Shown here piece after piece: positions 1-30,387 of a stretch of DNA of 33,173 bases. The DNA lies in NCBI GenBank assembly GCA_029834535.1, contig JAQMWT010000352.1, positions 1 to 33,173 on the forward strand. The letters run 5' to 3'. Every line of letters starts with the position of its first letter. The stretch's first letter is position 1. Under the pieces are notes generated by a model. The model made no database searches, had not been told where the DNA came from, and worked only from the letters and a program-made list of their open reading frames with translations. Source of the stretch: Chrysophaeum taylorii (Eukaryota; Sar; Pelagophyceae; Pelagomonadales; Pelagomonadaceae). Made by a program: the position numbers and the translations under genes.

Positions 1-2247
1 TTACGTATTGCTGTTAGATAGTGCGCATCGCGGGTCGAAGGATGGCATGCAACGTTAATTTACGCACGTCATGGACAATCCGACACAAACGTTCTAAATT
101 TCATGATAGGTTCCAGCTTTCGGAATGCATTTACGATTATGAAACGCGTGCTTAGGTCCGGGGACAAGGCGATAGAATAAAATTATCATACGAAAATTGT
201 TGGTGCGCACACTGCGAGTTGAGTAACGTCGAATGCGACGAGCCGTGGATCGTGCCATCATGTTGGCAAAACCTCACGAATAGCGTGAGTTGGGGTTACA
301 TAGGACGAACTTTGGCGCCCATCTTCCATCGCTGGATGTGATGAAGCCAAAGGTATCGTTGAGACAGATGCATGTCACTTCTTAACGCAAAATTTACCGA
401 TGAACTTCGACATACGATTTTTCCGAGGGCGACGAGCCGAATCGTGAAGCACAGGCGGGGTGTAGGAAACCAGTTTGTACTAGACTACGTGTCTTGATTT
501 TCATTATGATGGTGATAAGCTTGGCATAACCAGTCCTGTAATCATGAGTAAGCATGTTTAGTCTTCATCGATTCCTGCATCCGTGTTTCCAAAGATGCAA
601 GGTTTCTCCATTTCGTGTGCCTGGTATTTAGAAGAGTTTAGAACCGTGATGCCTCCAGCACTTCCAGTGATGTGAAACATGACGTAGAGCCATCTATTTA
701 GAATAACCAGAGATGGTTGGTTATGTTCGATATTGTAATACGAAAGGACACGTACGCATGGAGTTTGGGAACAAGCGTCCTAATGCGCATTATAGAGGAG
801 CACGCCTTGAGTTCAATAGGAGGCTTCTCCAAAGAAGGGCTTTCTTGAACAAGGTTAAGTCCCATATGTTGAAATGCCTCCATTTCATCTTGACTTGATG
901 TTCGACTGTTTTGTTTGAGTGCAGACGAAGAAACAACATGATTAAAGTTTCGAGCTCAAAACCGTTAAGCAAACGGATCTGTGCGACTGAAGTTGCTAAA
1001 GTTTTGGGTATGGACACAAATGTCAGAGTCCCAGAAACCGTGTCTGCCGACGAATTAACTTGCGACTGATGGTTAGCGTGATCTGCAATGTCCAGGTGTC
1101 GAAGGATGTTTATTATGCCAGCCAAAGCAAATCTAGATGGCCGGTATTATAGTTGCGAGCAGCAAGGATCCAACTTTTCTGGCTTGATAATCTCCATCAC
1201 AAATAACATGGGAAACCGATCAGCATATCGACCGTAGTTCATCAAAGATGAGATTACGCGCCTGTATTATGATCTTCGGCAAAATGATGCAAGTGTGGTG
1301 GCGTCATCTCCATAAGAATGAGGGGCTTTAAAAGCCAAGTACTTGAGCACTTGGAAACAAGTAGTCGTCCATATCGCGCTCGAAAGTTGAAGTGGATCTC
1401 CCTTTATCGCGTTATTGGTGCATGGGACGTCAGTTCCACTATATCAGTATCATCTTGCACGTTCAGTGTCCGATGCTCGATGTATATATGGGAGGAAATT
1501 GGGTAGTGACGGGAAAACTCCGATGGAATTACCAAACCGTCTTCGTAGCATATGCGTAAGATTTTCGTCGCTCTCAACAAGAACTTTAACTTTGATGTTG
1601 ATTTGCAAGTCATTGGAAGTGCAAGCCAAGAAGGCAGGAGTGGACACCCCGGAACAAAGTAGAGTTACGGTATGTGTTCGTGAACTTGGAGACGTAGTTA
1701 CCGTATGGAGCGTGTAGTCACACGGAGGTGGAGAATGCTTCCGTATAGGCGGACTGCGAATGCATGGACTCCAAGATGGTTTTGAGCCACGGACGTAAAT
1801 TACACGTTCCATAAGGTTAGAGTATAGCTTAAGCATTTCGCGTTGTTCGTTAAGAGCACTTCGTCTGAACTGTAAGGAGCGAAGTTCAATTTTCCGAGCT
1901 TTTGCTTGTTGTGGCGAATAAATTGGGAGAGTAGGCAACAAGTTGTTTAATCTAAACAAAGTAATCTTGACGTTATCGTCAATTTTACTCTGGGTAGATG
2001 ATTGTCCTTTAAATTCAACCCCACAAAGATGTATGCCAAGTTTATCTTCTCCCCATTGAGTCATGCTGATGATGTGCAGATCGGGATCGTTATGGTCGTT
2101 TTCTTGGGTAGGAAAAGCGCAACATCTAGCCGCATATCCCACGTTAGGATGCTTTGGGAGAGCGGGATGACGGTTCTTATTACCATGGCATGAGTGATGC
2201 TTTGAGTATCGGTTGCAGTCTGGATAGCGGGTGACAAGGACCGTAGT
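1..2247 (-). pseudogene. C5 DNA methyltransferase domain (left copia-like copy)
   Basis: Continuous in frame with the protease, an open stretch from 2142 to 1450 contains a linker of about 150 residues and then methyltransferase motif I (CSGVSTPAF, about 1640-1665) and the motif II glutamate (VESDEN). Motif IV follows near 1440-1420, but one base is missing just before the catalytic cysteine codon compared with the right copy, so the reading frame is lost exactly at the active site. Motifs VI-VIII, a long target-recognition region and motif X follow in broken frames down to the window edge. It is the inverted homologue of 9150 to about 11460. Confidence 0.8.
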
Positions 2248-3711
2248 TTAATTGATATGCATTGGATCAGCGTAACGTTTAAATTTAATCACATGTTGAG
2301 AGGCACACGTATCAGCATATCCTGGCGTAGTCATTAGAGGTAAATTGTACTCATTGTACAATTTAAGCATGGTTGCACAACAGGCATGTGTAGAGCTTTG
2401 ACCGAACACATACTGTGTCATGAAACTTTGCGTTTGTTCGGAAGGTACTACGACAAGTGTAATACCATTGTTTAATTTCGGTACCAACACAGGGGGATCT
2501 GTACCATCCTCATTTTTTTCGTTAGGTTGGTTATCGGGGAGCTCGGAGTGCGAAGAAGTTCCCCGAGCTTGACGACGAAAGATGGCATTCTGGGCTTTAG
2601 CATTTATGTGCTGCCGTAGCGGCTGAGGAATGTTATCGATTTCATCATCTTTGATAGATAGAAAAGTATGAAGCATCTTTTCTGTTTCAGCAGTCCCCCT
2701 CTGCTCCGCATCACTGGGGGACGCTGCAGGAGCAGAAATTTCAGCTTGATCCTTTTCTTCTATAACATGAGATTCTTTATCGGCTTCTAAGAGGTTCGAG
2801 ATGGTGTTAAACATCGTATCAACTCGTGATAAGTATAGATGAACTTGAGTAGCTTCGTCAGGATCTAGAGACTGTGTCGAAGCTTGGGAAGCGGCTGTCC
2901 AAAGGGTACTCAGTAAGCTCTTCATTTCCTCCTGTACCATTTTAGAGTCGGTAGAAGGATTGGGATTCGCTTCCTGTAATTTACCAAACAGGTGGCGAAG
3001 ACGGTCAACTTGATAAGTAGCCCTGTCCGTGAGTGACATATTGGAGCGTGAGTTGCGGTTAGAGGACTGTGAGTAGACAGGACGGTCGAAACTGGAGCCT
3101 TTGACATTCTAATTTGAAGGTGGACGATAGTAGGACGTACCACGAGGTAAAATTGTCGATGCTTTATCTTTTGCATTACGAAGCTTACGAGCGTTAAAAC
3201 AAGACTGTCCAGCAACGGTAGCTAACAATGAGTAAGCATTGTTTAGAGAATCATGAGATTGATGAATAGTATCCATCAATAATACCTTAGGTGGCTTGGT
3301 GGCGGTAGTACCAGGGATATATGGAATCCATGATGCGGGTTTATCCGAGCGTCGGTTAGATGAAAACTTTGTCTCATTATATATCTTTAACAAGAACTCC
3401 AATAACGGACGAACATCGTTTGGATCAACTAGCTTTAAAACTCCAGGATCGTGAGTCGAGTTGTTTCCCGAGCGTGTCTCGTAAAGTTTGCACCATTCCA
3501 ATAAAGACTGAGAATAGCGTTCGTGATCAGAGGGATTAGCATATAGACGATAGATCTCCTCGTGAGCTTTAAGTGCGATTATGGAATCATTAAATTGAAT
3601 TGATGCTTCGTCATTGTTTAATTGATTTGCCTGAGTATGGAAAGCCAGGAGTTGTTCGACAAATACATGAGCATACCAATTAGCATTTAAGGACGTTCGA
3701 TTAAACTGAGA
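2248..3711 (-). pseudogene. gag C-terminal part and protease (left copia-like copy)
   Basis: Gag resumes after the Helitron in one frame to a TAG near 3109 and continues in the same frame from 3039 to a stop at 2248. The protein has charged helical segments and ends in the retroviral-type aspartic protease signature YADTCASQH (active-site Asp codon at about 2311-2313; D-T-C-A in place of D-S/T-G-A, as in many copia elements). The protease releases the mature proteins of the polyprotein. A sequence PSDAEQRGTA near 2695-2720 recurs after the integrase of the right copy. No zinc knuckle is seen. Confidence 0.75.
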
Positions 3712-3721
3712 CAAGTGCAGG

Positions 3722-4018
3722 CCAGTAAGTTCACCTAGTCCCAATCTCTAACCCCAGTAAGTTCACCTGGTCCCAGTAAGTTTCATTTAAGTTCACCTGG
3801 TCAGTAAGTTCACCTAGCTCACACCCACTCCTTTGAGCTCGTCGCTCTCACCGCCGCCAATCCAAGCTGCTTTGATCCGCACGCGCCGCCAACCTTTGAG
3901 TTTACTCTAAAAACCCCAGTATGTTCACCTGGTCCCAGTAAGTTCACCTGGTCACTCAGTTCACCTAGTCCCAATCTCAAACCCCAGTAAGTTCACCTGG
4001 TCCCAGTAAGTTCACCTA
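3722..4018. repeat. Short tandem repeats, CCAGTAAGTTCACCTGGT family
   Basis: About nine imperfect copies of a roughly 19-bp unit lie in two clusters (3722-3815 and 3911-4018), separated by about 95 bp of unrelated sequence. They occupy the 3' subterminal part of the Helitron. Some units carry CTAG instead of CTGG, and a longer spacer (TCCCAATCTC) recurs in both clusters, so the two clusters are themselves duplicates. Confidence 0.85.
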
Positions 4019-4089
4019 CAGTGCGCGATTAGACGCTGGGAGGGGGCTTATCGGTATTGCGCAGTACGTGTGGGGTAGGGTGGAGTCGT

Positions 4090-4606
4090 CGACTCAGAAG
4101 AGCATATCCTCGGGGTTGCCGATCGACAGAGAGCCACGTAGAGCTGGACGTGACAGAAGACGGGCTTGGGCAAGAGGACGGCGACCTCGCGGTGCGTCTA
4201 GCCCTGGCTCTTGTTGATCGTTTGGCGTCGGCGGGTCTTAAGGGATACAGGTTGGAGGAGCCTCGGTGACACGACACGATCGATCATGTATCTGGTACCG
4301 TTGCAGTGGCCGTGCGACGGGTCGAGGTTGCGAAGACTTTAAGCTCGCGATCAAAGTCAGCATGCCGTTGGTTGTCAGGGAGTTGAAAACTCGACTGTAA
4401 AGAGCGAGGCGTCGTCTTCCGACCCAACCTAGTCGGCCGAAAAGAACTCCGACGCCTCGTCTCCGGGAAAAAAAGGCCGCGGTAATGCGCGCGTTGTCAG
4501 CATCGACAACATCGTTTCGACGGGGCGTGAGAATGGCGAGCTGAAAGAGCCGCCGCGGGTCGTGGAAATGGTCTGCGAGGTTGCCGTAGACGGCTTGGAG
4601 GATCAA
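4090..4606 (-). pseudogene. Helitron Pif1-like helicase, C-terminal fragment
   Basis: The helicase unwinds DNA during rolling-circle transposition. On the minus strand successive family signatures appear in the right order across different frames: an ILTPRRNDVVDADN block near 4520-4480, LYSRVFNSLTTNGM near 4395-4355, NLDPSHGHCNGTRY near 4330-4290, then TINKSQG followed by a stop, LLPKPVFCHVQLYVALS near 4205-4125. These match the end of Helitron RepHel proteins, where the last two blocks are helicase motifs V and VI. Frame changes and an internal stop show it is not functional. Confidence 0.88.
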
Positions 4607-4659
4607 TGCCTGCCTGGCTCGCGGGCCTACCTGATCCTTACCCTAAACCGGGGGACAAA

Positions 4660-4701
4660 CAGACAGGCAGACAGGCAGACAGACAGACAGACAGACAGAC
4701 A
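4660..4701. repeat. GACA microsatellite
   Basis: A run of GACA units with two GGCA variants sits about 25 bp from the Helitron 5' end. Tetranucleotide slippage at this position is common in degenerate element copies. Confidence 0.9.
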
Positions 4702-4726
4702 AACATCTGTCGATTAGTAGTAAAGA

Positions 4727-5463
4727 TTCAAGCTCAGTAACATCTGCACAAGATACTGTTTCATAGTAATGGTAAGCTAGAAGCGTTACTGCACGTAATT
4801 TATTAGGGTGTGCAGTAAACGCACAAATCTTCTTTAACTGCGGCCACATGGCGAGGGCAGGGCGTTCTTGAGATTCTAGGTTGAAGAACGTGTACAGGAA
4901 ACCGATGTAAGTTTCGCAATGTTTAATCCAATCGGCATTAGAGAGACCTGTGAAGGATATGTTCGTTAGAGTTGAGTCATACACAATTGATTTAGGGAAT
5001 GGGTATCTAATACAGTGAGGACACGCTTGACATCCTCATTTAATTCGGGTCGAACAAGATTATATGACTCTTGATAGCAAAGTCGTTCGAGATCATTGCG
5101 TGCATCAACGGATAGTTGATGGGTAGAGTTAACGTGCCAAGTCTCGAGATGAGCAGGCAAGGCATCTTCATTGGGTAACTGCAATTCATTAATTATGTCA
5201 GCTTTCCATTGAGCGAAAATGATATCAACTTCGTGTTCGAGAAGTTGGTCATATTCTGGGGCATTTCGTGTATATGAGTCATAAGAATCATATACGAACA
5301 ACGCATCCGCATATGGGCTTGTCATATGCCTTCGAAGCACCTCAATTTGCAAACTCACCTTGGTCGAATTGTCTTGGAAGCGTAATCCACCCTTGAGTTT
5401 ATCAACGAGGATTTGTTCCTGCTTATAAATATCCGTGGTGGATATTGGTTTCGGCTTTGACAT
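4727..5463 (-). pseudogene. gag, N-terminal part (left copia-like copy)
   Basis: The start codon at 5463 opens a protein beginning MSKPKPIS that is closely matched by the right copy from 6903. The first 160 residues are open; a small indel near 4990 moves the frame, and the rest continues to 4727, where the Helitron interrupts it. There is no zinc knuckle and no similarity I can name; the call as capsid protein is by position, directly after the LTR and before the protease. Downstream sequence resumes at 3711. Confidence 0.7.
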
Positions 5464-5470
5464 AGTCGTG

Positions 5471-5487
5471 ACCTATTGAAAATAGGT
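5471..5487 (-). other. Hairpin in the gag leader, left copy
   Basis: A perfect inverted repeat, ACCTATT-loop-AATAGGT with a three-base loop, lies 8 bases before the gag start codon. The same hairpin is at 6879-6895 in the other copy although surrounding bases have diverged. It could act in packaging, translation or priming; no function can be shown. Confidence 0.5.
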
Positions 5488-6007
5488 TATAGGAAGGATA
5501 AAACAAGTTGACATGTTCGAATGAAGGGTCTCTAACATGTGGAGGAATATGTACAGTTCGCTATTTTAAGCGTGAGCATATATACAAGACCAATCAAATC
5601 ATTATGCCATTTAAGCATGATGCTTTTTGAGACTGACGAATGGATTAATTCTCGAGCAGTCAGTCATTTGTTGGGGAATGAGAGGAAAAACCCGTACAAG
5701 TTTTCGCGGCTTGTGTAGGAAAATTTTTAATTTTATTGGCTATGCGAGTGCATATGACCAGTGGCCGACCCAACTCGGTCACAAACCAAATTAAATGGTG
5801 GTCAAATACCGTCACACAACAAATATGTACAGTAGACCACCACCAAACACATTGTCGCATTGTACTCGTAATCAGGCGCAAACTGATCACTCCATTATAC
5901 GCACAACACAGTTGGGCTGACACACCTACGCACTGGCCCATAACCTGGAGAGATTCGACCCTCTCCGGGTACATGGTAGAGACTGCGTGCAGTCTTAGGC
6001 GTGTACA
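5488..6007 (-). repeat. 5' LTR of left copia-like copy
   Basis: This stretch is an inverted copy of 6353 to about 6870. On the minus strand both copies begin TGTACACGCC and run without coding potential to the gag leader. The 5' boundary is placed where the two copies stop matching; the four bases before it (GGTC) are also shared. The 3' boundary is uncertain because no 3' LTR is in the window for comparison and no primer binding site could be assigned. Confidence 0.65.
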
Positions 6008-6352
6008 GACCTCCAGAGAGCTACACTATTATGTGTACGACACTGGAACATCTCACTCCTTTCACACCTATCTCCACTAGAGGGTTTTCTCTCCGCAATA
6101 CGGCTTTCCCTCTTTCCTTCCTTACCCTTCCGCAATTACTTATTCATGACTATGAAGAATACAGTCTGAAGCTCTCTTCCAATATGGAGTAGGTCTCCAG
6201 GTGCGTACCGTCAGGTACGGTGTTTTCTGTTTAATTAACAGAGGCTTCGTTCCTCGTCGTCAGTGTAAACGCTTCTATGGGACTTAATGTCCTTAAGGAG
6301 TTAGGGCCTAAATCCCTACCTTGTGTAGTAGCATGTGACAAGCGGAATGGTC
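6008..6352. other. Spacer between head-to-head LTRs
   Basis: This 345-bp stretch is the only part of 1-11460 that has no inverted partner. It has no convincing gene. Two small perfect stems are visible (CGTACC/GGTACG near 6200 and CTGTT/AACAG near 6230) and a pyrimidine-rich tract near 6105-6135. It could be the original target DNA, or part of another element into which the two copies inserted. Confidence 0.5.
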
Positions 6353-6870
6353 TGTACACGCCTAAGACTGCACGCAGTCTCTACCATGTACCCGGAGAGG
6401 GTCAAATCTCTCCTGGTTATGGGCCCAGATGCGTAGGTGTGTCAGCCCAGCTGTGTTGTGCGTATAATGGAGTGATCAGTTTACGCATGATTACGAGTAC
6501 AACGCGACTATGTGTTTGGCGGTGGTTTACTGTACATATTTGTTGTGTGACGGTATTTGCCCACCAGTTAATTTGGTTTGTGACCGAGTTGGGTGGGCCA
6601 CTGGTCATATGCACTCGCATAGCCAATAAAATTATTTTTTTTTTCCTACACAAGCCGCGGAAACTTGTGCGGGTTTTTCCTCCCATCCCCCAACAAAAGA
6701 CTGACTGCTCGAGAACTAATCCACTCTTCAGTCTCAAAGCATCATGCTCAAATGGCATAGTGAGTTGTTTGGTCTTGTATATAAGTTCACGCTCAAAATA
6801 GCGAACTGTACATATCCCTCCCTCCGCATGTTATAAACCCTTCATTCGAACATGTCAAGTTGTTTTATCA
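6353..6870 (+). repeat. 5' LTR of right copia-like copy
   Basis: Begins TGTACACGCC and matches the inverted LTR at 5488-6007. A T-rich run near 6630 and a purine/pyrimidine-biased stretch follow. The exact 3' boundary is not determined because the partner 3' LTR is absent. Confidence 0.65.
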
Positions 6871-6878
6871 CTCCCATA

Positions 6879-6895
6879 ACCTATTTTCAATAGGT
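6879..6895 (+). other. Hairpin in the gag leader, right copy
   Basis: The same ACCTATT-loop-AATAGGT hairpin as in the left copy, ending 7 bases before the gag start codon at 6903. Its stem is unchanged in both decayed copies. Confidence 0.5.
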
Positions 6896-6902
6896 CACAA
6901 CC

Positions 6903-8637
6903 ATGTCAAAACCAAAGCCAATAACCACTACGGATATCTATAAGCAGGAACCAATCCTCGTTGATAAACTCAACAGTGGGTTGCGCTTCCAAGACAATTC
7001 GACGAAAGTAAGTTAGCAAATAGAAATGCTTCGCAGGCATATGACAAGCCCATACGCGGGCGCGTTGTTCGTGTACGACTCGTACAACGCGCATACGCGA
7101 AATGGCCCAGAATATGACCAACTTCTCGAACATGGAGTGGATATCATTTTCGCTCAATGGGAAGCTGAGAAGACTAATGAATTACAGCTACCTAACGAAG
7201 ATGCCTTGCCTGCTCATCTCAAGACTTGGCACGTCAATTCTACACATCAACTATCAGTCGATGCACGTAATGATCTCGAGCGACTTTTCTATCGAGAGTC
7301 ATATAATCTTGTTCGACCCGCATTAAACGAGGATGTTAAGCGCGCCCTTTCTCTCTTAAATACCCGACTTCCTAAATCAATCGGGTATGATTCATCTCTA
7401 ACCAACATATCCTTCTCAGGTCTCTCTAATGCCGATTGGGTTAAACACTGCGAAACCAACGCCGGTTTCCTGTATACGTTCTTCAACCTGGAATCTCAAG
7501 AACGCCCTGCCCTCGCCATGTGGCCGCAGTTAAAGAAAATTTACTCGTTTACTGTACACCCTAACAAAACGCGCGCATTGACCCTTCTGGCTTACCATTA
7601 TTATGAAACTGTATCTTATACAGATGTCACTGAACTTAAATCTCAGTTTAATCGAATGTCCTTGAATGTTAATTGGTATGCTCATGTATTTGTCGAACAA
7701 CTCCTTGCTTGCCAAACTCAGGCAAATCAACTAAACGCTGAAGAAGCTTCAATCCAATTCAATGATTCTATAATTGCACTTGAAGCTCACGAAAAGCTTT
7801 ATCGTCTTTATGCGGATCCTGCTGATCACGAGCGCTACTCTCGGTCCCTATTAGACTGGTGTAAACTTTACGAAACACGCTCGGGGAACAACTCGACTTA
7901 CGATCCTGAAGTTTTAAAGCTAGTTGGTCCCAATGATGTTCGTCCGTTATTGGAGTTCTTGTTAAAGATATACAATGAGCCAAGTTTTCATATAACCGGC
8001 GCTTGGATAAACCCGCATCATGGATTCCACATATCCCTGGTACTACCGCTACCAAGCCACCTAAGGTATTACGGATGGATACTATTCATCAATCTCACGA
8101 TTCTCTAAACAACGCTTACTCATCGTTAGCTACTGTCGCTGGACAGTCTGGATTTAATGCTCGTAAGCTTCGTAATGCAAAAGATAAAGTATCGACAATT
8201 TCACCTCGAGACACGTCCTACTATCGTCCACCCCCAAATTATAATGTTAAAGGCACCAGTTTCGACCGTCCTGTCTACTCACAATCCACTAACCGCAACT
8301 CACGCTCCAAAATGTCACTAATGGATAGGGCTACTTATCAAGTTGACCGTCTTCGCCACTGTTTGGTAAATTACAGGAAGCGAGTCCCAATCCCTCTACC
8401 GACTAAAATGGTACAGGAAGAAATGAAGAGCTTACTGAGAACCCTTTGGACAACCGCTTCCCAAGCTTCTACACAGTCTCTCGATCCTGAAGAAGCTACT
8501 CAAGTTCATCTATACTTATCACGAGTGGATGCTATGTCCAACACCATCTCGACCTTTTAGAGACCGATAAAGAATCTCACGTCATAGAAGAAAAGGATCA
8601 AGTTGAAATTTCTGTTCCTGCAGCGTTCCCCAATTAT
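6903..8637 (+). pseudogene. gag (right copia-like copy)
   Basis: The start codon at 6903 matches that of the left copy. A TAG near 7012 closes the first frame; the same frame reopens and runs to about 7975, where one base lost relative to the left copy moves it, and a second open stretch runs from 8003 to 8560. Because this copy lacks the Helitron, it shows the uninterrupted gag. The protein is about 570 residues, rich in helices, with no zinc knuckle. Function as capsid protein is inferred from position. Confidence 0.7.
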
Positions 8638-9405
8638 GTGGAGCAGAGGGGGACTGCTGAAACAGAAAAGATGTTTCATACTTTTCTATCTATCAAAGAT
8701 GATAAAATCGATAATATTCCTCAACCGCTACCGCAGCACATAAATGCTAAAGCACAGAATGCTATCGTTCGTCGTCAAGCTCGGGAAACTTCTTTGCACT
8801 CCGAGCTCCCCAATAACCAACCTAACGAAGAGAATGAGGATGGTACAGATCCCCCTATGTTGCTTCCGAAATTAAACTATGGTTTTACACTTGTCGTGGT
8901 ACCTTCCGAACAAACGCAAAGTTTCATGACACAGTATGTGTTTGGTCAAAGTTCCACACATGCTTGTCACGCAACAATGCTTAAATTGTACAATGAATAC
9001 AACTTACCATTAATGACTACGCCGGGGTATGCTGATACGTGTGCTTCTCAACATGTGATTAACTTTAAACGTTACGCCGATCCAATACATATCGTTAAAC
9101 TACCCGAATCCCGGTCACCCGCTATCCAGACGGCTACTGATACTCAAAGTATCACTCATGCCACGATAATAAGAACCGTCATCCCCGCTCTTCCAAAGCA
9201 TCCTAACGTTGGATATGTAAAGCTAGACGTTGCGCTTTTCCTACCCAAACAAAACGAACATAATGATCCTGATTTGCACATCATCAGCATGACTCAATGG
9301 GGAGAAGATAAACTTGGTATACACCTTTATGGGGTTGAGTTTAAAGGACAATCATCTATCCAGAGTAAGATCGACGACAATGTCAAGATTACTCTGTTTA
9401 GATGA
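8638..9405 (+). pseudogene. Protease region (right copia-like copy)
   Basis: The aspartic protease signature YADTCASQHV is at about 9028-9057, with the catalytic Asp codon at 9034-9036. It would process the polyprotein. The open stretch ends with TGA at 9403-9405, but the same frame continues beyond it into the methyltransferase, and in the left copy this position is not a stop, so the stop is a mutation and not a gene end. Confidence 0.72.
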
Positions 9406-11408
9406 AACAACTTATTACCTACTCTCCCAATTTATTCGTTACAACAAGCTAAAGCTCGAAAAATGGAACTACGCTCTTTACAGTTCAGATTAAGTGCTTT
9501 TAACGAACAACGTGAGATGCTTAAACTACACTCCAACCTTCTTGGGCGTGTAATTTACGTCCCGTGGCTCAAAACCATTTTGGAGTCCATGCATTCACAG
9601 TTGCCTTATGTTCGCAAGCATTTCTCACCTCCTGTATGACGCAAGGTTAATACACGCCTGCTCCATACGGCAACAACATCTTCTAGTTCACGAGCACCTA
9701 CTGTGACTATACTTTGCTCCGGGATGTCCACTCCTGCCTTCTTGGCTTGTGCTTCCAATGACTTGCAAATCAACATCAACGTTAAAGTTCTTGTTGAGAG
9801 CGACGAAAATCATACGCATATGCTACGAAGACGGTTTGGTAATTCCATCGAAATTTCCCCGTCACTACCAAAGTTCCTTACATACCTACATCGAGCATCG
9901 GACACTGAACGTGCAAGATATTATACTGATATAGTGGAATTGACATCTCCATGCACCAATCGCAACATAATCAACGCGAGATCCATCTCAACTTTCGAGC
10001 GCGATATGGACGACTCCTTATTTCCAAGTGCTCTAAGTGTACTCGAACTTCTAAAGCCCCTCATTCTTTTTATGGAGATGACGCCACCACACTCTGCATC
10101 GTATGAAGATCATATACGAGTTGCTAATCTTATCTTCTCTACGATGAACTACACGGTGGATATAAGTGATCGATTTCCATGTTACTTGTGTGGAGATTAT
10201 CACGCCAGAGAAAGATGGATCCTTGTTGCTCGCAATTATAATACTGGTCCTTTAGATTTGCTCTCCTGGCCTAATATGCGAGTCACTTCCTTCCTGGACA
10301 TTGCAGATCACGCTAACTCTATCAGTCGCAAGTTAATTAATTATCGACCAACCTTGGACGCAGGTCTTATCGGATATAACATTCATTTCCATGCCTAAAA
10401 CTTACAGCAGCTTCAGTCGCACAGGATCCGTTCGCCTAACAGTTACTGAGCTAGAGACATTAACCACGATGTTTCTCCGTTTGCATTCAAATAAAACAGT
10501 CGAACATCCAAGTCAAGATGAAATGGAGGGCATTTCTAACTTTCGCCTAGGATTTTTAACGAATTCAAGAAAGCCCCTATCATGTATGACTTCTCCTATT
10601 GAACTCAAGGCTTTTGTTATCCTCGATAATATTATGGGACGCTTGTTCCCAAATTCCACCACATTATCTGTGTCCTTTCGTATTACAACTATCGAATCTA
10701 ACCAACCATCTCACAGGTTATTCTTAAATAAAACCTCTCCTTCCTCCTTCATTTACATCACTGGTGGAAGACACATAGGTGGAGACATCATAATTTCTAA
10801 CTCCTCTTCTAAATATCAGGCACACACAAATGCATTTGGGGGAACCTACATCTCCCAAACACATGATACAGGAATTGATAAGACTGCTTCTCTCAATCCC
10901 GTTACCGGTTTTCTTTGGTTATGCCAAGCTTATCACCATCATAATGAAACTCAAGACACCCGTCGTCTCGTGCAAACATTGGTTTCCTACACGCCACCTG
11001 TGCTTCACGATTCTTTCATCTTTTATCCAAAGAAAAATCATCTCGAGTTCATCGGTAGAATTTTTGCTTTCAGTGACATGCATCTGTCTCAAAGCAGGTA
11101 CCTTGGCTTCATCACTCACATCTAGTGATAGAAAGATGGGCGCCAAAGTTCACTCTACATATACCCCAACTCCCACTATCCGTGGATTCGCTAACATGAT
11201 CCTTTACGATCCACGGCTTGATCGCACTCGACATTATTCAACTCGCGAACTGGCACGCGCCAATAACTTCACAGCGCACCAAATTAATTTTCTCCTGTCT
11301 TTGTCCCCGGATCTATACTGTGACATAATCGCTAATGCTATTCCGGCTGGAACCTATCATGTAATTTACACACATTTGTGTCAGATTGTCGATGATTTGC
11401 TTAAATGA
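9406..11408 (+). pseudogene. C5 cytosine DNA methyltransferase domain inside copia-like polyprotein
   Basis: The enzyme transfers a methyl group from S-adenosylmethionine to cytosine in DNA. Visible motifs in order: I, CSGMSTPAF (about 9715-9741); II, VESDEN with Glu at 9796; IV, ELTSPCTNRN with the catalytic Cys codon at 9952-9954 (Ser-Pro-Cys rather than Pro-Pro-Cys); VI, FMEM with Glu at 10075; VIII, HARERW at about 10201-10218; a long target-recognition region to about 11150; a pre-IX TPTPTIRG; IX, YSTRELARANNF (about 11236-11271); X, ANAIP (11331-11345). Motifs I-VIII share the protease frame, with a further TGA near 9637; the remainder needs two frame changes. The linker 9406-9700 has no family. 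Motif recognition is by eye; overall order and spacing make the call strong. Confidence 0.83.
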
Positions 11409-11529
11409 ATGTTATCACCATCCTTTGACCCTGATCACGCTTCTCTAACCAAAAACTATAGGTCAACCTTTTTCACAAACATAATTTCCCAGTGACACAT
11501 CCTTAATATTACACCAAAGTTCGATCACA

Positions 11530-12868
11530 ATGTTATACATTTCCAATAAAAGCTTCCAATGTTGTGATAATATCGCTTCTAACCACGAACTCCCACTATT
11601 TCATCTCGACTCGGTGGCTCACGTCTTCCTATCTAACATCTTATCCGCAGATACATCATCTTCTACAAAATCGAAACACATTCCTCTCATAACTCCAAGA
11701 CAGTTACACGAGAAACATGCTTCCTTCGACAGAAAAGTTCATGCCAGAGGCACCCTCGCATTTCGAGATGCTCAGCGACGTGCTACCAATTTCCACAATA
11801 TACATCATTCTAGTGATTCCCAAGCTATAAAAGCTGTTCAGGTTATTGCTAGTCCGGGACATCATCCTTCCGATGTGCCCTACCGTAAGTTTTGTGTGGA
11901 TTGTACTTTACATAAAAAACGCTTTCCTCAGCCACATCATCTTACCAAGCAACCTTCATTCGAAATAGTTTTCCAACCTGGTGAAGCCTGGGCATGTGAT
12001 GGTGGTTACGTATCTGTCCTATCGGAATGGGGATCCTTTCGCCATATCATAGTCTTTAAGTGTCTCATTTCTAAATTTTTGTTAGTGTACTTTTGTCGTA
12101 CCACCAATGCTAGTGAATTTTGCAATGCCCCCGAGTTTGTTCGCAACTTTTGCTCCACTTATGTTCATGTACAATTAAAACAAATTTATTGTGATTCTTT
12201 TAAACCCTGCTTATCTTAAGACGTTACTACTCCCTTTCGTGTTGAACATGGTATTAATATGTCTGCTTTCCCTCCTTACTTACATGTTTTTAATCATGAA
12301 ATAGAAGCCGCTGTTGGTCATATAGCAACTGCCGCGTCTACACGACTCCGGCATATGCTTAATGTATCCTTCCTATAAAGGTCACCCCCTAACAGATCCG
12401 GCACCACACTACCCGTGGGCTGTTATACATGCTGCTCAATCGTATAATCTCCTTCCTAACGTTTCTCTCTAACGTATTTATAGTAAGTCCTAAGCCCCCA
12501 ACAAGTTTTGTTGGATCAATGTAATGTTCCCAAACAAGATTACCTCAAACCTTTTGGTTCTGTTTGTTATCTACATTTGGAACCTAATGAATTTCATAAA
12601 CATGAACCTCGATGTCGTCCAAATATCTACTTATGTGTTGCTAATGTTATAAATCCGTTAATCACACCCCATGTTAACCACTTAGCTGATGTTGTCCTTA
12701 ATCCTGAGAACGGCCAAGTACGTGTTTCTTCTAAACTTACCTTTCCTCATCTTATTTCTCAATCCCCTCCTGATCATGAACAACATCCCTCACCCGCACC
12801 TTCACCCGACATCCCCTTCTCTGTTCACAGCACCCCCAGTGATGCGGCGCAGAGGGGGAATGCTATGT
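11530..12868 (+). pseudogene. Copia-type integrase (right copy)
   Basis: Integrase joins the cDNA to the genome. A histidine-rich segment and CVDC (about 11800-11920) form the HHCC zinc finger. The catalytic core begins with WACDGG (about 11989-12006) and continues with conserved aromatic blocks; after a stop at 12217 the core continues with FNHEIEAA (catalytic Glu near 12300), then WAVIHAAQSYNLLPN (about 12418-12462). From 12508 the typical copia block KPFGSVCYLHLEP follows, then a proline-rich tail ending in PSDAAQRGNA just before the hAT boundary. Several stops make it inactive. The preceding gap 11409-11529 shows no feature. Confidence 0.8.
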
Positions 12869-12871
12869 CCG

Positions 12872-22113: not shown

Positions 22114-22331
22114 TATGGCGGCACAGAAAGACCACTCCCGACCCCCGGGTGACAAAGGGGGTACTCACCGACTCGTCCTAAACCTCACCGAACGAGGAAA
22201 ACACGGACTCGGGGTCGGATATGCTCGCCACACACCTTGCTCACGCTCACCAAGCCTCTCAACAAGATGGAGAGATGGTATATGATAGCAAGAATGCTAC
22301 AAGAATACTGCAAGAATGCTTCTCACAAGGG
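22114..22331 (-). repeat. 3' LTR of gypsy-like element
   Basis: Direct repeat of 32190-32413. On the minus strand it can be read as TGTGAG...GCCGCCA, starting TG and ending CA. The polyprotein reading frame runs on into it and stops at 22297. It lacks the extra GCTCAC unit present in the 5' LTR. Confidence 0.8.
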
Positions 22332-22965
22332 CCTTGGCTGAATGAGCATCTCGAGAACGAATCTTCTTGTAGACACGTTCAACGACAGGTTCGGGAACGC
22401 GTCCACTACGCAAAGTGGACTTAGGAATCAGCACATCGATCTCATGCGGGGCGAAGTCGGTGACACAAGGAGTGGTACTGTTGTTGACCTTGGACTTGTC
22501 GGTGAAACTGCGACCGTCCACGTCCTTGTATTCCGGCTTAAGCTTACGAGTAGAGAGATGTGAGGTAGGCTTGTAATAAGAAACCTTGTCATGGGGACCA
22601 AGATCAGCATAAAAATGCAGAGCGACTCGATCATTCACAAAATCAAACGGTTCATAAACCTCAGCGACGTAAATCTTCTTTCGCCAATCGGACCGTTTGT
22701 TATCTGGAATCCGAAAGATAACGAACTTGCCGTGCTTGTAATCATCCCGAAAGGTCTCCTTGGGTTTGGGCACAGCTCGATCGACCACTGGAGAAACCAT
22801 CACAGGGGTGATCTGACTGACATGAACACAACGGCGTTCAGGAGGAGAATCAAGAGACTCAATCCTGTAGGTGACCGGAGACAAGCGTTCCATAACGAAT
22901 GGACAGCGCCATTCCGGTCGAAGCTTGTTCTGAAGAAAAGGGATGTAGAGCAAAACATGTGGACC
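22297..22965 (-). pseudogene. Integrase C-terminal domain and extension (gypsy-like element)
   Basis: In frame with the integrase core after a single TAA at about 22974, the sequence KLRPEWRCPFVMERLSPVTY and VHVSQITP (about 22925-22800) is the GPY/F-type C-terminal module of gypsy integrases. About 120 more residues follow, including KFVIFRIPD and IYVAEVYEPFDFVNDRVALH (about 22740-22610), which looks like a small beta-barrel (Tudor/chromo-like) fold such as those that direct integration, but I cannot assign it. The final 40 residues are coded across the LTR boundary. Confidence 0.7.
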
Positions 22966-24432
22966 TTATTCATACTCCACATCGACATGGTCCGCATTGT
23001 AAGCGAGACGTTGTTTACGAAGAGCCTTCTCGCGAGCTTCGTTCACCGTAGCGGTATAGAACTTCAACCTCTCGCGAGTCTCTGCCACAACATCGGAGCG
23101 AGTTTTCGGCAGGCGGCGGACATCAAGATCCATGATCGTATAATCTGTTGGCAATAGAGGCTGCCGGTTGAGACGAAGCATGAAAGGTGAGATCTGAGTT
23201 GCCGGAATAAACTTACGATTGTAGCAAAAAGCAATGTACTCCGCGAATTCGGGCCAGTCCGTGATCTTGCGGTTTTGAAGACACGCACGGAGGAAGGCCT
23301 TGATAAAGCGGTTGACCCTTTCCGCAGGATTAGCCTGAGCATGATGCGGAATCGTGGTACTATACCGAACATTGAAGACATGACAAAACTCTTCCATCAA
23401 CTTGTTGACGAACTCTTTCCTATTGTCGGTACGAATCCTCTGAGGCAGATAGCCTTTGAGTAATACATTCGCGACAAAAGACTTGAGGATTGACTCAGCA
23501 GTCTTATGGTGTAGTACGTCGAGAATCAAAAAATGAGAAAATGGATCAAAAAAGATGATCAGATATGTCTCGGGACCAGCACTGGGCAAATGTCCGAACA
23601 AATCCATACAAAGGACGGCGCAATCACCATCATACACCGGTTGCTGAAGAAGACCTGCTCTCTTTGGTTCAGGCGTACGAGCTTTCTTGCACACTATGCA
23701 ACCAGCAATATAAGCACCCACCTCATTAGACATGTGGGGCCACCAAAAACGTTCAAGTATCGACTGCACTGTACTTTGACGATCCATGTGACCACCATTG
23801 AGAGGTGCGTCATGGTACAATCGGATGATGCGCGTCCGTAAAGTTCGGGGTGCGACTATCATCGGGTGCAAGTCAGGTGCGGCACGGTAGAGAACTCCTT
23901 TCACCACTTGACGGCGATAATTGGCTCCGTACCGACGAAGAGAATGGCCCTGAGCCATGCGATAACGAATGTCCTCGCAAGTAGCATCAGTGATCTGCTC
24001 TTTGGCTATCTCTTCCAAAGTCAAATTATCCGGAATCTTGTCGATGTACTCTTGGTAATCATCTGCATAACGGAAAATACTAAGCTGGGTCTGCAGACGT
24101 TGCTTCTGACGTTGTCTCGTAGCATGAGACGTGACCAATTGCATCGGATCATCGAGATCCTCTCCTTCATCCTCTTCAGGTAACTCAGTCGTAACAAACG
24201 ACAGAATGACATGGCACCCAGGTAAAGGTACTCCTTCATCATCGACAGGGCGAGGAAGTTCTTGGCACACTAGATACGCGTGGTTCAAGGGTTCACCAAA
24301 CTCATCCGTCTCGATGACATGATCTATAGGATTGCGAGATAGACAGTCAGGGATACTCATTCCCGGCGACTTCCCTGGTTCGTAACCCAATTCAGGATCA
24401 CAATTGGCGAGCCGCATCGCCCATCGAGCCAA
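22966..24432 (-). pseudogene. Integrase, zinc finger and catalytic core (gypsy-like element)
   Basis: The open frame first covers the end of RNase H (ARWAMRLANCDPELGYEPG) and a linker, then the HHCC zinc finger (YHDAPLNGGH ... CIVCKKA) and the catalytic core with all three acidic residues visible in context: CMDLFGH, RTDNRKEF and NPAERVNRF. The core catalyses strand transfer of the cDNA. The frame is open for 488 codons, the best preserved part of the element, and ends at a TAA that replaces a sense codon before the C-terminal domain. Confidence 0.88.
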
Positions 24433-24732
24433 CTACCCAGACGAGTGCTTCGCCTTTCGTAAAAACGTCAAATTGCGATGATCCGTCTCAAGGATCGTCT
24501 TGTGACCTTCAATATAAGAGCGAACATGCTCAAGAGAAAGAATAACTGCCAGTAGCACTAGCCGGCGGGGCTCATAGTTCCGCATCTCTTTCGGCACAGC
24601 TCGGCTCCAGTACTCTATCACTCCTTCCTCTCGTGTCACCTTGCCGGTTTCGTCCTTGACTTCCACGAGCTGAAAAAGATACGCGCCCAGACCATCCTTG
24701 GAAGCATCCGAGCGGATCTGAAAAGGAAGATC
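24433..24732 (-). pseudogene. RNase H domain (gypsy-like element)
   Basis: RNase H removes the RNA strand during reverse transcription. DASKDGLGAYL (near 24690) supplies the first catalytic Asp, IEYWSRAVPKEMRNYEP follows, and TDHRNLTFL (near 24475) the last acidic block. It is bounded by a TAA near 24734 and a TAG at 24433-24435, both in the frame shared with reverse transcriptase and integrase. Confidence 0.85.
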
Positions 24733-25345
24733 TTAGTCAGGATGATAAACTCCGCGAGAGTCCACCAAAGCTTCGATGATCGTGTCCCATGCCTTTTGGC
24801 ACTCAGGCGTCCACTCAAACTTAACGCCTTCAAGACACAATCGCCTCAGCGGCTCCACCATCTTCGAGTAATTCTTCACATATCGGCGGCAATAGTTGCT
24901 CATGCCGATGAAAGATCGAATCTGGGTCTTCGGGGACGTGTTAGGCAACGTACCGGGAATCGGCATCTGTTGCAACGCTTCTAACGTCTTGGGATTCGGC
25001 TTCAAGCCCTCCGGAGTCGAAATGTGTCCCAAAAACTCGATTTCATCCTTGAGGAGGTGGAACTTCGAAGTTTGTCCACTATATCCTCGCTGCGCTAGAT
25101 GGCACAGCACTTCAATCAAAACTTGTAAATGTCGGTGGAGTTCATCCGATCCCATCATAATATCGTCGACGAACGCGACCAAGTCCTTATACATCCATGT
25201 GGACAAATCGCTAGCCATCTGCTTATAAAAGAGAGCTCCTGCTGTTTTTACTCCCAGAGGCAAGCGCAAGAAACTATGGGCTCCAAGTGGACTAACCATC
25301 GTAACGGCGTCCTGAGCGGCGGCGTCCAAACGTAGGTTATGATAA

Positions 25346-25716
25346 CTAACTAACTAACTAACTAACTTCAGACCTCTCCCGAGCATGGGAGCCAGGCCGG
25401 ACCGACAGGAGCCAGTCCGGAATCACGGGCCTGTAGACGAGGGGCGCCGAAAGGTGGGTCGGCGGAGAGTGATCATCAAGCTTGTCGCCATGCGACGAGG
25501 AGACCGCGATGTGACTGACAACCAACTCGTCGATAACCTTCCGTCTGCGCCCCCCGGCCATACCCCGTCCCACTGCGAACGTTCCGGCTGCCAACCGGCC
25601 CGCCCGAGAGGCGAATAGGTGCCAACCTACGCCGGGAGGGCGGATGCCCTCGCGAGGCTCAGGATTCATGAGGCACCGTCCTCCATCGCAACCATGCGGT
25701 CGGCGATCAGGGTAAG
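25346..25716 (-). mobile_element. SINE-like (or 5'-truncated LINE) insertion with TTAG tail
   Basis: Bounded by the perfect 11-bp duplication GGTTATGATAA at 25335-25345 and 25717-25727, this 371-bp element lies inside the reverse transcriptase. On the minus strand it ends in GAGGTCTGAAG followed by about five TTAG units. Its last 53 bp occur again, inverted, at 30335-30387. No tRNA-like A or B box could be recognised and no reading frame has a family, so SINE or the 3' end of a LINE are both possible. The LINE at 20211-21224 has a TTAG-type tail too. Confidence 0.85.
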
Positions 25717-26454
25717 GGTTATGATAATCCCATCGAATATCAATGCACGTCCGCCAACGGCGCATGGCAAGAAAAGCCAAAGCATCATCTTGAAGAATAT
25801 TCGGCCTACTGTCATTGACCAGCTGATCATTGAGCTGACGCAAGTCAACTGCAGCACGAAAAGCATTCGACGTCCCGGCCTCTGCTCCCTTCTTAGGCCG
25901 CATCAATGCAGGGAATCCCCACGGAGAGTTCGCCGGTCGGATGACTCTATCGCGACACCACTCAGCGATCTGCTTTCTGAGACACTCGAGCTTTGCTGGC
26001 GTCAACCTATAAGGCGTCATCTTGATCGGTCGTGGGTTTGCGTTTTTAAATCGTAGAGAAACCGTTGGCGAGTCCACGGGTCTCATAATCGGATCAAAAA
26101 AGACCCACGCGTATTGCACGCAGTGGCTCAACATCATCTTCGCATCCTCATCCAGATGCGGGTTGTCGGGAATTCCCAGTTCTCGAACAACCTTTTCGAC
26201 TTCTTCCTTCGTCGGAGTTACGACTTTCATCGCCTCATTGTCCTTGACGTGCTCCGGAGTCTGCGGTAACGGTACACCGTCCGCGTCGCGCGGCGCATCC
26301 TTCCATGGCACATCGAACTTTTCTTCATATTCGAACCTCACCTCAGGGTGGCTCTTATTGATCTTTTCGCCTTTGACGCGCACAATCGGCTCGCTCCTTA
26401 CTTTCGGCTCCTGTTCAGGTTCAGGATCCCGTGGAACGTTTACTTTTGATTGTC

Positions 26455-26475
26455 GGGGGGGGGGGGGGGGGGGGG
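26455..26475. repeat. G homopolymer of 21 bases
   Basis: A run of 21 G on the plus strand encodes a proline run on the minus strand, between methyltransferase and reverse transcriptase. The reading frame that looks natural before it differs from that after it, so its length has probably slipped. Long G runs are also prone to sequencing error. Confidence 0.9.
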
Positions 26476-26613
26476 AGCAGAAAAAGCATGAGCCGTCCCC
26501 GGCGCATCTGTTGGAAGCGGAAGCATAGGGACTTCTGGCGGTTCCCATTCAGTGGGATCCTGGAGATCAACTTTTGACACCCACTTAACGACACGAGTAC
26601 GCGTATTTGACAG

Positions 26614-26659
26614 CGGAATCTGTACGTGACGAAGGGCGGAATCTGTACGTGACGAAGGG
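26614..26659. repeat. 23-bp tandem duplication causing a frameshift
   Basis: CGGAATCTGTACGTGACGAA with three more bases occurs at 26614-26636 and again at 26637-26659. Its length is not a multiple of three. With one copy the frame upstream (methyltransferase end) passes directly into the acidic linker before the reverse transcriptase, so the duplication is a later inactivating mutation. Confidence 0.9.
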
Positions 26660-27836
26660 TGGTGTCGGAAATTCGCAAATACTGCTCAAAGGGTCGATCT
26701 GTCGGGCTCAACGCGGTCGGCAGGACTTCGCCACTTAGGCGGAAACCTTTGGACACGGAGTTGTGCAGACCGACTGCTAAAATCGCAAGAGTGTCTGGAG
26801 GGACGACAGACACTAAATGTTTGAACGAATCTGTCTTAGACAAGCTAGCCCAATCATGATCCAGCGGCATCGTGAGCAACTCGGCCGTCATCTCGAGAGT
26901 CAAAGGCTGAGTGTCCGAGCGATGCGGTCCCAAACGAAGAGGAACTTGCGTAACGGTGTAAGCCGTATCTGTTGCTTCTCGGGACGAGCCGAGATTATTC
27001 AGCTGGAGCAGGTGGCGTTCATGAGCGTAACCTAAAGCTGCAGCAAATTTTTGTTGCATATTCGCTCATGTCTTCGGAGCCTCTTGCAAGTGCAGTGGGT
27101 GACTGGAAACCAACAATCGCACGCGAGAGCTCATCAAAGTGGGCGTGATATCATGAAAATTGACGACGTATACGTAAGGGTGTAAGCGCGCTATATAAGA
27201 AATAATGGCCGCCTCCTGTTCAATCAGCCACATCATGAAGCCAGCCATTTTGCACAGCTTCGTCGTCCAATTAGTGGCCGTAACTCCCCTGCCAACATCT
27301 CTGGATGTCAAGTTGCAGAGTGCTGAATGAACGCAGGGTGGAGACGCCATACACATCGACGATGACCATTCCGCTTCAGGCAAATAAGCCTTGATCAATC
27401 GGAGGGTCGAGTCATATCGTCCGCAGAGCGTGAGCTGAACCACAGGTATCTTCGGAGAATTCTTCTGATGAATCTTGTTGGCAGCTGTTGAGGAGCCGAG
27501 AGCAAGGACGACTCGAAATGACGTCACGCACAACTCATTCGCTCGTTGCAGTCCTAAAGTACTTCCTCCGGCGCCGCTAAAGAGCATCACGACCCTGCGA
27601 TACGTGATCACCCAGTGGACTTTTTAAAACCTTCGGCGAATCTCGCCTTCTGTAACTTCTCGACATTTCTTTTCCTCCTCGTCGGTTCGTCGGTCGAAAT
27701 CGTCGTTACCGAGCGATTCTTGACGAGAATTCTTATTCTTATCGGCAGAAGGAGATGCCTTCTGCACCGAGCTCAAAAGCATCGGTTCGGGAGCCGTATC
27801 GCCTTGAGTCAGATGGCTTGCGACCGAAACAGTGAA
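26660..27836 (-). pseudogene. C5 cytosine DNA methyltransferase domain inside gypsy-like polyprotein
   Basis: In the same frame as the protease, after a charged linker, lies a compact C5 methyltransferase: motif I LFSGAGGSTLGLQRA (about 27584-27540); motif IV MASPPCVHSALCN with the catalytic Cys codon at 27333-27335; motif VI IEQ; motif VIII SSRVRLLVSS (about 27131-27102); motif IX QPLTLEMTAELL (about 26909-26874); motif X SVVPPDTLAILAVGL (about 26810-26766). The Glu of motif II appears replaced (LALGSS). Three stops (27837, about 27624, 27066) interrupt an otherwise single frame. Only about 40 residues separate motif VIII from IX, so there is almost no target-recognition region. It would methylate cytosine, perhaps on the element's own DNA. 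Confidence 0.85.
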
Positions 27837-29436
27837 TTATAGGTTAGCCTTGTCAGATTCGGCTTCACCATCCTTCGTTAAATCGTCGACCGTTTCAACA
27901 TTCAGCTCGTCATCAAAAAGAAAAATATCGCTCAAAGCGAGAACTTCACCTTGAGTAATCACGGTCGGCACATCCTGGGTAGAGGAGATCGCCACTCGCG
28001 CTGCGAACTTATCATGATCCTCAGGAGAAGAACACATTCCATCGACTACCCCAAGTTGCTCGTATCCAGAAGACGTAGCAACGAAAACTTTCCCGGTTTC
28101 CATGGGCTCTGACAGAGCGACTGGCACGCAGTAAGTGCGCCCAGGCTCGACCTTCATCGTGCGCGCAGCGTAGGCTATCACTTCATAGGCATCGCTGTTC
28201 GAACTTTGAGAAGGCGTAACTGGAGGGACTCCCCAAGTCGTCGAAGCTCCCGCTCGTTTCGGCGGTGGACGCTGGAGGTCTTCAATCTTGCACAAGCGAG
28301 CGTAGACTCGGTTCTCAACTGTGCTCAGGCTCTTTTGCATCGCATGGTGCTGTTGCCCATAAACCTGAACTACAACGGGGCTGCGCTCGTCATAAGTTGT
28401 TCTGAACGTCAAAATCGGAGAATCGACTCGTCGATTCTGTACCTTTAACTTCTTGCGCCCATAAGCGACTTGTGTGCGGAGAAACGCAATGCGATTTCGC
28501 GGGTACACTATGGCTCCCAACACCCGAATATCGCGCGCTCCCAGCAGAAATAGGTGATTAGTATCGGCCACAATGGCAACCACTGGAACGGGCACGTCGT
28601 CCGCGAGCGCAATCCGCAATGCGACCCATTTGTGGATAGTCGTCTTATTCAATCCTGACCCGTACAGGGTGCGCTCGACCGGAAGATCACCTCGGTGAAG
28701 GATGATATTATCCTTCGTCACTTTTTCGACCATCCCACGACAAATATAGGAGACATCAGCCATTCCATACACGCCGAAATTCGTTGCGAACTTCGGCCCG
28801 TCTCGTCTGTAAATATGACCAACTATGAACGTAAGTGTACCAGGGTCCACACAACCGATAGTGATGAGGTCTTGCTCGATCTTTTCCCCATCGCTCGGCG
28901 AAAGTGCAGTGTGATGACATCGTATCTCCGGTTTCGCATCGCCCGGCATCTGCATCGTCACCGCTGCCATATCTGGCGTCCGACATCTCGCCTCTGAATC
29001 TATATTGGCGCTCGCCGCTTCGGCTGCTTCCTCATTCCCCAGTTTCGCAGGCAACAAATTTTGACACTTCTCAATCGGAGGCACATATACTTCCTCCTTT
29101 ATCTCCTCTGATAATTTTCGTTTCTCGTCCATCAAATCGGACATTCCCGTCAACTTCTCCTCCGTCGGCGCTGCTGTGGTCTGCTCTGCTGCGACCAAAA
29201 CTGTATCGGCTAAAACATCGGCTAAAATAGGCTCGGGGAGGGGGCGTAGGAAAAGAAGACGTCGTCCCCGACGTCAACTCAAAAGGTCTAACGTCATCAT
29301 CGGGAACTGCCCTGCAAGACATACACATTGAAGAATGGGGGGACACTGGAACCTGCGGCATGGGCTCGTCGGTCTCCGAGTCTGAGTCTTCCCAGTAGTG
29401 CGGAGAATCCAAAGTTGCATCTGATATTGCTTCCAC
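27837..29436 (-). pseudogene. Protease region and linkers (gypsy-like element)
   Basis: After the gag stop the frame continues to about 29250 and then changes to the frame that stays open for 453 codons (29198-27837). In it GMADVSYI (about 28770-28747) and LLGARDIRVLGAIVYPRNRIAF (about 28550-28487) correspond to the flanks of a retropepsin: the residues after the active site and the C-terminal hydrophobic-hydrophobic-Gly block. The Asp-Ser/Thr-Gly triplet expected just before ADVSYI is not there; Tyr-Gly-Met is read instead. The last 180 residues are an unassigned linker before the methyltransferase. Confidence 0.65.
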
Positions 29437-30334: not shown

Positions 30335-30387
30335 CGGCCTGGCTCCCATGCTCGGGCGAGGTCTGAAGTTAGTTAGTTAGTTAAGTT
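30335..30387 (+). mobile_element. SINE-like fragment with 46-bp target duplication
   Basis: These 53 bp match the 3' end of the element at 25346-25716 in the opposite orientation, including the TTAG tail. They are flanked by 30289-30334 and 30388-30433, a 46-bp direct repeat with one mismatch, which is gag sequence present once in an uninterrupted gene. This is a strongly 5'-truncated insertion by target-primed reverse transcription. Confidence 0.88.

Follow-up and report, generated by a model that had tools for sequence, protein, structure and literature searches.

C5 DNA methyltransferases (DNMTs) have been described within retrotransposons, namely in LINE and DIRS elements of Symbiodinium and in gypsy elements of Klebsormidium (de Mendoza 2018, PMC5890265). 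An earlier note on the DNA considered here mentioned such enzymes from dinoflagellates and charophytes; this precedent is real but, as far as the available part of PMC5890265 goes, it lies in LINE, DIRS and gypsy elements, the copia elements of Symbiodinium being without any DNMT. In the yeast assay reported there, CG methylation was obtained with two enzymes from DIRS elements; those from LINE and gypsy elements gave none, an outcome which the authors considered inconclusive. KnitGypsy-Dnmt3 of Klebsormidium nitens, as presented in the available text of PMC5890265, resembles the family reported here (copia-A) in carrying a C5-methyltransferase (MTase) in the Pol of an LTR element under purifying selection, but it belongs to the gypsy superfamily and its enzyme is of Dnmt3 type, whereas copia-A is a copia family with the MTase behind a conserved UGA; a gypsy element on the same stretch of DNA is probably nearer in kind to KnitGypsy-Dnmt3 than copia-A is. 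SymbioDIRS-Dnmt3 and SymbioLINE-Dnmt, from the same portion of that study, share with copia-A a C5-MTase in a many-copy retrotransposon and the occurrence of more than one such family per genome, although the former is of the DIRS class (with a tyrosine recombinase) and the latter a LINE.

Adenine methyltransferases borne by DIRS elements (PMC6338049, PMC5890265) also represent a DNA methylase in a retrotransposon polyprotein, but according to the accessible text of PMC5890265 they are structurally unrelated to the C5 kind. As carriers of C5 enzymes, the available portion of PMC6338049 names gypsy and DIRS, a 2025 paper (PMC12344493) contains in its accessible part one sentence on 'LTR Copia and DIRS' that cites the 2018 work, and the accessible parts of PMC9998398 and PMC12477816 report no copia-borne C5-MTase element; beyond the PMC12344493 sentence, nothing on copia-borne C5-MTases appeared in the available text of the literature matches listed. 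Here it is shown from genomic copies that, in an abundant Ty1/copia family of Chrysophaeum taylorii, Pol regularly begins with a predicted C5-MTase domain that selection has maintained.

Organization of the window

The window, that is, the whole stretch of DNA analysed, is the complete 33.2-kb contig C352, and the genome searched is the 70.8-Mb assembly of 697 contigs. The assembly is eukaryotic by its ribosomal protein uL3, whose best PDB chain, 5xxb from Toxoplasma, reached 624 bits and the next 620, too close to discriminate between lineages; a dinoflagellate or Perkinsus was considered as host, but the spliced-leader pattern had no match at up to one mismatch. The window contains two decayed copia-A copies, a host gene related to TTC21 and a minus-strand gypsy element (Table 1). 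The copia-A copies abut head to head at 6011/6012; the left one retains a decayed MTase remnant that reaches down to about position 5, and the right one stops before the reverse transcriptase (RT). No copia RT lies in the window. The integrase region of the right copy matches rve (E 0.073) and SH3_retrovirus (5.2e-6), both under the cut-off. The host gene shows 38-39% identity to two proteins of public contigs and contains a direct duplication (15769-15836/15862-15929). Two further observations concern the window: an open reading frame (ORF) at 20289-21023 on the minus strand resembles, by eye, the last part of an RT of the LINE type, and a 63-nt GTAAGTTCACC-rich repeat occurs in three copies at 3720-4012 of the left copia copy.

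Table 1. Coordinates of the features within the window.
Feature	Position	Strand	Details
Left copia-A copy, inverted	5..6011	-	protease 2299-2316, motif I 1648-1671, motif II 1561-1575
Right copia-A copy	6012..12870	+	last 31-nt piece at 12840-12870
Right copy, 3' part of Gag-protease	8359..9636	+	ADTCAS at 9031-9048; frame broken here
In-frame TGA	9637..9639	+	context GTA-TGA-CGCAAG; Gag-protease/MTase-Pol boundary
Right copy, predicted C5-MTase domain	9640..11483	+	frames 9640-10350, 10322-11116, 11115-11483
Motif I, TVTILCSG	9700..9723	+	second glycine missing
Motif II, ESDEN	9796-9810	+	right copia-A copy
Motif IV, TSPC with catalytic-type cysteine	9943..9954	+	Cys codon 9952-9954
Motif VI, FMEMTPP	10069..10089	+	Glu kept, ENV not
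Motif VIII, DYHARER	10195..10215	+	Q replaces H in 10/10 covering rows of alignment A5
Motifs IX-X	11232..11351	+	IX HYSTRELARANN 11232-11267; X IANAIPAG 11328-11351
Right copy, integrase region	11485..12762	+	KPFGSVCYLH at 12547-12576; integrase ORF from 11485
Host gene	14967-16999	+	TTC21-related by Pfam accessions of relatives
Ty3/gypsy element	22114..32413	-	LTRs 22114-22331 and 32190-32413 (95-96% alike); RVT_1, Integrase_H2C2, rve
Gypsy C5-MTase	26775..27623	-	between upstream ORFs and RT
Gypsy MTase motifs	LFSGAGG in 27564-27590; SPPC in 27324-27347	-	IX 26874-26903; X 26775-26807

A divergent C5-methyltransferase domain

Judging from its motifs, the segment between protease and integrase of copia-A is a divergent but complete C5-MTase domain. 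Motifs I, II, IV, VI, VIII, IX and X, to which we assign the names used for C5-MTases, follow one another in the order and at the positions given in the earlier note, including the cysteine at 9952; of the interval 9406..11408 which that note had assigned to the enzyme, however, 9406-9636 is the end of Gag-protease, and the domain spans 9640-11483. In this decayed copy the domain is split over three frames, which the single-frame ORF of one genomic copy matches by tblastn at 92%, 82% and 93% identity. Across alignment A5 (11 rows, one of them not covering motif IV), the SPC of motif IV, with its Pro-Cys, is found in 10/10 covering rows, the Glu of motif VI in 9/10 (Gly in L087) and the QxR of motif VIII in 10/10. 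On the other hand, the FxGxG of motif I is represented by CSGMS, CSGLS or CAGLS, PCQ is replaced by PCT and ENV by EMT, and motifs VIII and IX are separated by a long insert for which the reference C5-MTases have no counterpart. Because the second glycine of motif I is absent and these two replacements have occurred, the activity of the predicted enzyme is uncertain.

Family searches recognized this domain poorly. Pfam PF00145 gave no match in the window ORF and, over nine genomic copies, a single one (1/9, E 0.081) that did not reach the gathering cut-off; NCBIfam gave no MTase over nine copia-A rows, with one unrelated family in 1/9 (E 0.051), and profile searches of the PDB gave no C5-MTase match. 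Weak support comes from phrog_116, annotated as 'DNA methyltransferase', which was matched by 8/9 rows of alignment A1 (best E 7e-4) and by 2/6 sequences of a second protein set, the window ORF not being among those matched. Scans of viral contigs with profiles A1 and A2 returned no relative, and a search of 5.8 billion proteins with the copia-A stretch returned no homologue at E 1e-3. A p53-like match between motifs VIII and IX (E 0.32) disappeared with a deeper profile and is regarded as chance.

Since Pfam was nearly silent on copia-A, a profile-profile comparison was built, in which a copia-A profile of 15 single-frame stretches of genomic copies, divergent ones among them, was aligned with 12 C5-MTases, 11 of them from plasmids or phages and one, L001, from the genome itself. 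The global alignment pairs motif I with motif I, TSPC with PCQ, EMT with ENV and QARER with QxRxR and, after the long insert, PTPTIRG, motif IX and motif X. Its score is 33.2, whereas 60 column shuffles did not exceed 9.8 and three further controls, namely the reversed alignment, Gag-protease and integrase, scored 1.0, 3.9 and 3.5, respectively; the local score of 40.3 compares with a maximum of 21.8 in 60 column shuffles and with 20.2, 10.7 and 20.5 for the same three controls. The PF00145 search proposed in the earlier note as a check therefore misses the domain, but the comparison between profiles passes. As the score exceeds its controls and all motifs are in place, the C5-MTase ancestry of the predicted domain is taken as shown and, considered alone together with its membership of Pol, can be regarded as very highly probable.

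The methyltransferase as a member of a copia element

The tests on the families were run on fetched copies, out of 919 (copia-A MTase), 826 (gypsy MTase) and 1089 (copia-A integrase) candidates. A genome search with the copia-A MTase yielded at least 150 matches (the best 150 of 919 candidates being scored). Searching with the integrase only yielded at least 151 (150 of 1089 candidates scored), and the 30 best of these integrase-anchored copies were fetched with a flank of 1.5 kb. Sequence of motifs IX-X lies directly upstream of the integrase in 30/30 of them, and the sequence between VIII and IX is present in 28/30, being absent from L046 and L069 and scant in L060; motif IV-VIII sequence occurs in 25/30, the flank reaching that far only partly. 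L061 is internally shortened and L069 is in short pieces. A protease joined straight to the integrase, the arrangement named in the earlier note as speaking against its proposal, was not seen in these 30 copies, in which the flank reaches the protease only in L061, nor did any of them lack the MTase segment. An alternative explanation is a passenger, a host gene inserted into one old copy and amplified without function; the decay of both window copies agrees with such a passenger, but MTase sequence in 30/30 integrase-anchored copies does not, and neither does its dN/dS, which is close to that of the integrase in eight copies not chosen by MTase. This explanation is already disfavoured and appears very improbable.

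The copia context proposed earlier, with the MTase between protease and integrase, is likewise supported, and RT is found in other copies. At least 23/150 MTase matches are followed on their own strand, at a distance of about 4-6.3 kb, by an RVT_2 match (by eye, among the matches listed); L091 carries a clear copia RT (RVT_2, 7e-43) followed by RNase H motifs recognized by eye, and RVT_2 with the order PR-IN-RT-RH is found in both L039 and L091. No LTR pair was recognized in L039, L091, L092 or the window copies, all of which are partial. Taken together, the copies show a predicted order of Gag-PR, UGA, MTase-IN-RT-RH. An additional ORF follows the copia RNase H in L091 (2822-4837, 672 aa) and in L092, with 77% identity at the DNA level; it has only coiled-coil-like matches and occupies the slot of the env-like gene of some elements.

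A conserved UGA ahead of the methyltransferase

The Gag-protease frame closes with a TGA, after which the MTase-Pol frame resumes in phase. This TGA stands at the identical place in 20/20 copies, including that of the window; in seven further copies it is in frame in six, L085 having TGACAC with a frame change nearby, and leaving aside L084 and L086, whose low identity is due to broken frames and not to divergence, it is in frame in 4/5. When the codon itself was left free, a search pattern matched 186 places in the genome (control, 1), and the 100 listed comprise 99 TGA and one TTA; the flanks belong to this pattern, so that it measures the state of the family and not selection by itself.

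It had been suggested in the earlier note that protease and motif I lie in one frame in both copies and that the domain is part of the polyprotein. The frame number is indeed the same, but the TGA intervenes; the left copy owes its open frame at the junction solely to indels, which shift the TGA out of frame and delete bases after it. Simple continuity of the domain with the protease does not hold, given the conserved in-frame UGA that separates the two.

From this anatomy, read-through of the UGA is the likely expression route of MTase-Pol. There is no in-frame Met between the TGA and the CSG of motif I in the copies seen, and a restart at ATGA cannot be general because the divergent copy L083 has lost the ATG overlapping the TGA. 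No stable pseudoknot-free RNA fold was found 3' of the UGA (z -0.34 to 0.52 in six sequences). In window 9640-9759, the CGCAAG that directly follows the UGA is complementary to a CUUG(C/U)G some 105 nt further on, and several of the folds contain this pairing, perhaps by chance.

Tca2, a copia-type element of Candida albicans, provides a comparison for this codon. Like copia-A it has a UGA of the in-frame type at its gag-pol boundary (abstract of PMC2194720), but its junction alone gives no read-through in Saccharomyces cerevisiae, and that abstract names no MTase. Because the UGA of Tca2 may be bypassed in other ways (PMC2194720, abstract), read-through in copia-A is proposed with caution.

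Selection on the domain

In eight open integrase-anchored copies, dN/dS was 0.156 between motifs VIII and IX, 0.106 over motifs IX-X and 0.105 in the integrase; these eight of 30 were kept as open and collinear, and openness itself selects copies. Over motifs I-VIII the value was 0.066 in 20 copies, which are the best MTase matches and hence biased low, the integrase-anchored figure being fairer. Shifted-frame controls gave 1.6 and 4.4, and Gag-protease, in eight copies, 0.338 as a ratio of means and 0.151 as a median. By these ratios (0.11-0.16, resembling the 0.105 of the integrase) the predicted MTase domain is kept by natural selection, and copia-A thus has a DNMT in an element coding region under purifying selection, as do the elements in the available part of PMC5890265.

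Further C5-methyltransferases in the genome

The MTase of the window gypsy element is, by sequence, more canonical than that of copia-A: the FxGxG of motif I is present as LFSGAGG, PF00145 is matched at E 0.012 (under the cut-off in the window copy) and at E <= 1 in 6/6 rows of alignment A3 (best 2.2e-5), and the global profile score against the C5-MTase references is 55.6. At least 150 genome matches were found (150 of 826 candidates scored), with open frames of up to 3067 aa, two of them above 3000 aa, and a dN/dS of 0.094 in 10 copies, the broken-frame window copy included. The MTase lies ahead of RT-IN in gypsy and ahead of IN-RT in copia. A repeat of about 360 bp (window 25352-25717) interrupts the gypsy RT; in L091 and L092, copies 97-98% alike follow the copia RNase H. 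Part of the repeat is present in L039, where its ends would fit a 5-bp duplication, and a further piece lies at about window 30328-30387.

A scan of the genome with PF00145 gave 57 places, eight of which were inspected (L001-L008). By eye, L001 resembles Dnmt2, and L002 is a further MTase gene; contig C634 carries L001 together with a gypsy MTase copy and is therefore likely to be host DNA. The remaining six, L003-L008, form copia-B, another family of copia type, in which PCQ and ENV are canonical and PF00145 is over the cut-off. A protease-like DGGAS precedes the MTase in L006 and L007, a copy on C96 has a downstream integrase (rve E 0.0014, under the cut-off; LPFG by eye), and L093 is grouped with this family, whose canonical MTase lies between protease-like and integrase sequences; the putative class copia is here assigned from the integrase alone. 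The copia-B MTase has a global profile score of 55.2 against the C5-MTase references, a dN/dS of 0.152 (six copies) and no homologue at 0.01 among 5.8 billion proteins. Comparison of the copia-A profile with the copia-B and gypsy profiles gave no match, the scores of 19 being at shuffle level.

A possible role in marking new copies

It is proposed that a minority of ribosomes would pass the UGA, yielding MTase at a low ratio to Gag and together with integrase and RT; that the three would be packaged into the particle, where cytosines of the element's new cDNA would be methylated before integration; and that the new copy would arrive pre-marked for the host. Such marking might help the copy to evade a sensor of unmarked DNA, shield it from a nuclease or serve self-limitation. 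For this chain as a whole, we estimate a probability of roughly 0.5. It is supported by the CG methylation obtained with two SymbioDIRS DNMTs in yeast, and weakened by the negative, in the authors' view inconclusive, outcome with the LTR (gypsy) and LINE DNMTs in the same test (both from the available text of PMC5890265), as well as by the missing CpG footprint in the elements and the lack of a stable RNA fold after the UGA.

With respect to this footprint, the observed/expected CpG ratio amounts to 0.98 and 1.04 for the pair of copia copies and to 1.20 for the gypsy element. The TTC21 stretch has a mild deficit (0.82, with TpG/CpA at 1.28), and the surroundings of uL3 reach 1.30. When copia-A copies are compared, C-T differences per C are 0.063 at CpG, 0.049 at CpA, 0.047 at CpC and 0.071 at CpT, and among nine gypsy copies 0.008, 0.003, 0.011 and 0.016, respectively. 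By neither measure do the elements clearly show the decay that long-term CpG methylation would leave. This would be consistent with a target other than CpG, with efficient repair or with an enzyme that is inactive.

An inactive enzyme would correspond to a C5-MTase descendant that has lost methylation and is kept for binding of DNA or RNA or for folding of the Pol precursor. The missing footprint, the degenerate motif I with PCT and EMT, and the long insert ahead of motif IX would agree with this, but the positions kept are the Cys, the Glu and the QxR, and motifs I-VIII likewise have a low dN/dS, albeit in the set biased low; such a loss seems rather unlikely, yet it deserves serious consideration. 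Methylation could also act in trans, on host chromatin or integration sites instead of cDNA, as the high copy number (at least 150 matches, 919 candidates) and the mild deficit of the host TTC21-like stretch might suggest; the ratio around uL3 points the other way and an enzyme packaged with Pol would sit in the wrong place, making this improbable. Finally, a packaged enzyme meets RNA as well, and RNA methylation has been raised for the LINE DNMTs (PMC5890265, available part), so that a Dnmt2-like preference for RNA, with the element genome or the tRNA primer as substrate, can be envisaged; no feature seen in the copia-A sequence points to RNA, and we consider this quite improbable.

Implications

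Returning to methylation of the element's own cDNA, a broader and more tentative proposal, doubtful as a whole, would be that at least two LTR superfamilies (copia, as two unmatched families, and gypsy) each carry an early-polyprotein C5-MTase, that self-methylation of particle-borne cDNA is convergent and in copia dosed by the UGA, and that it is common enough to shape or replace host methylation. The present data extend the capture of C5-MTases to the copia superfamily and place copia and gypsy side by side, as two LTR superfamilies with a C5-MTase in one genome. They also present a puzzle, since hosts silence invaders with a mark of the very kind that this invader would bring along. The puzzle is testable in an organism with two families of at least 150 copies each, in which selection on the domain can be measured and one codon may determine its dose.
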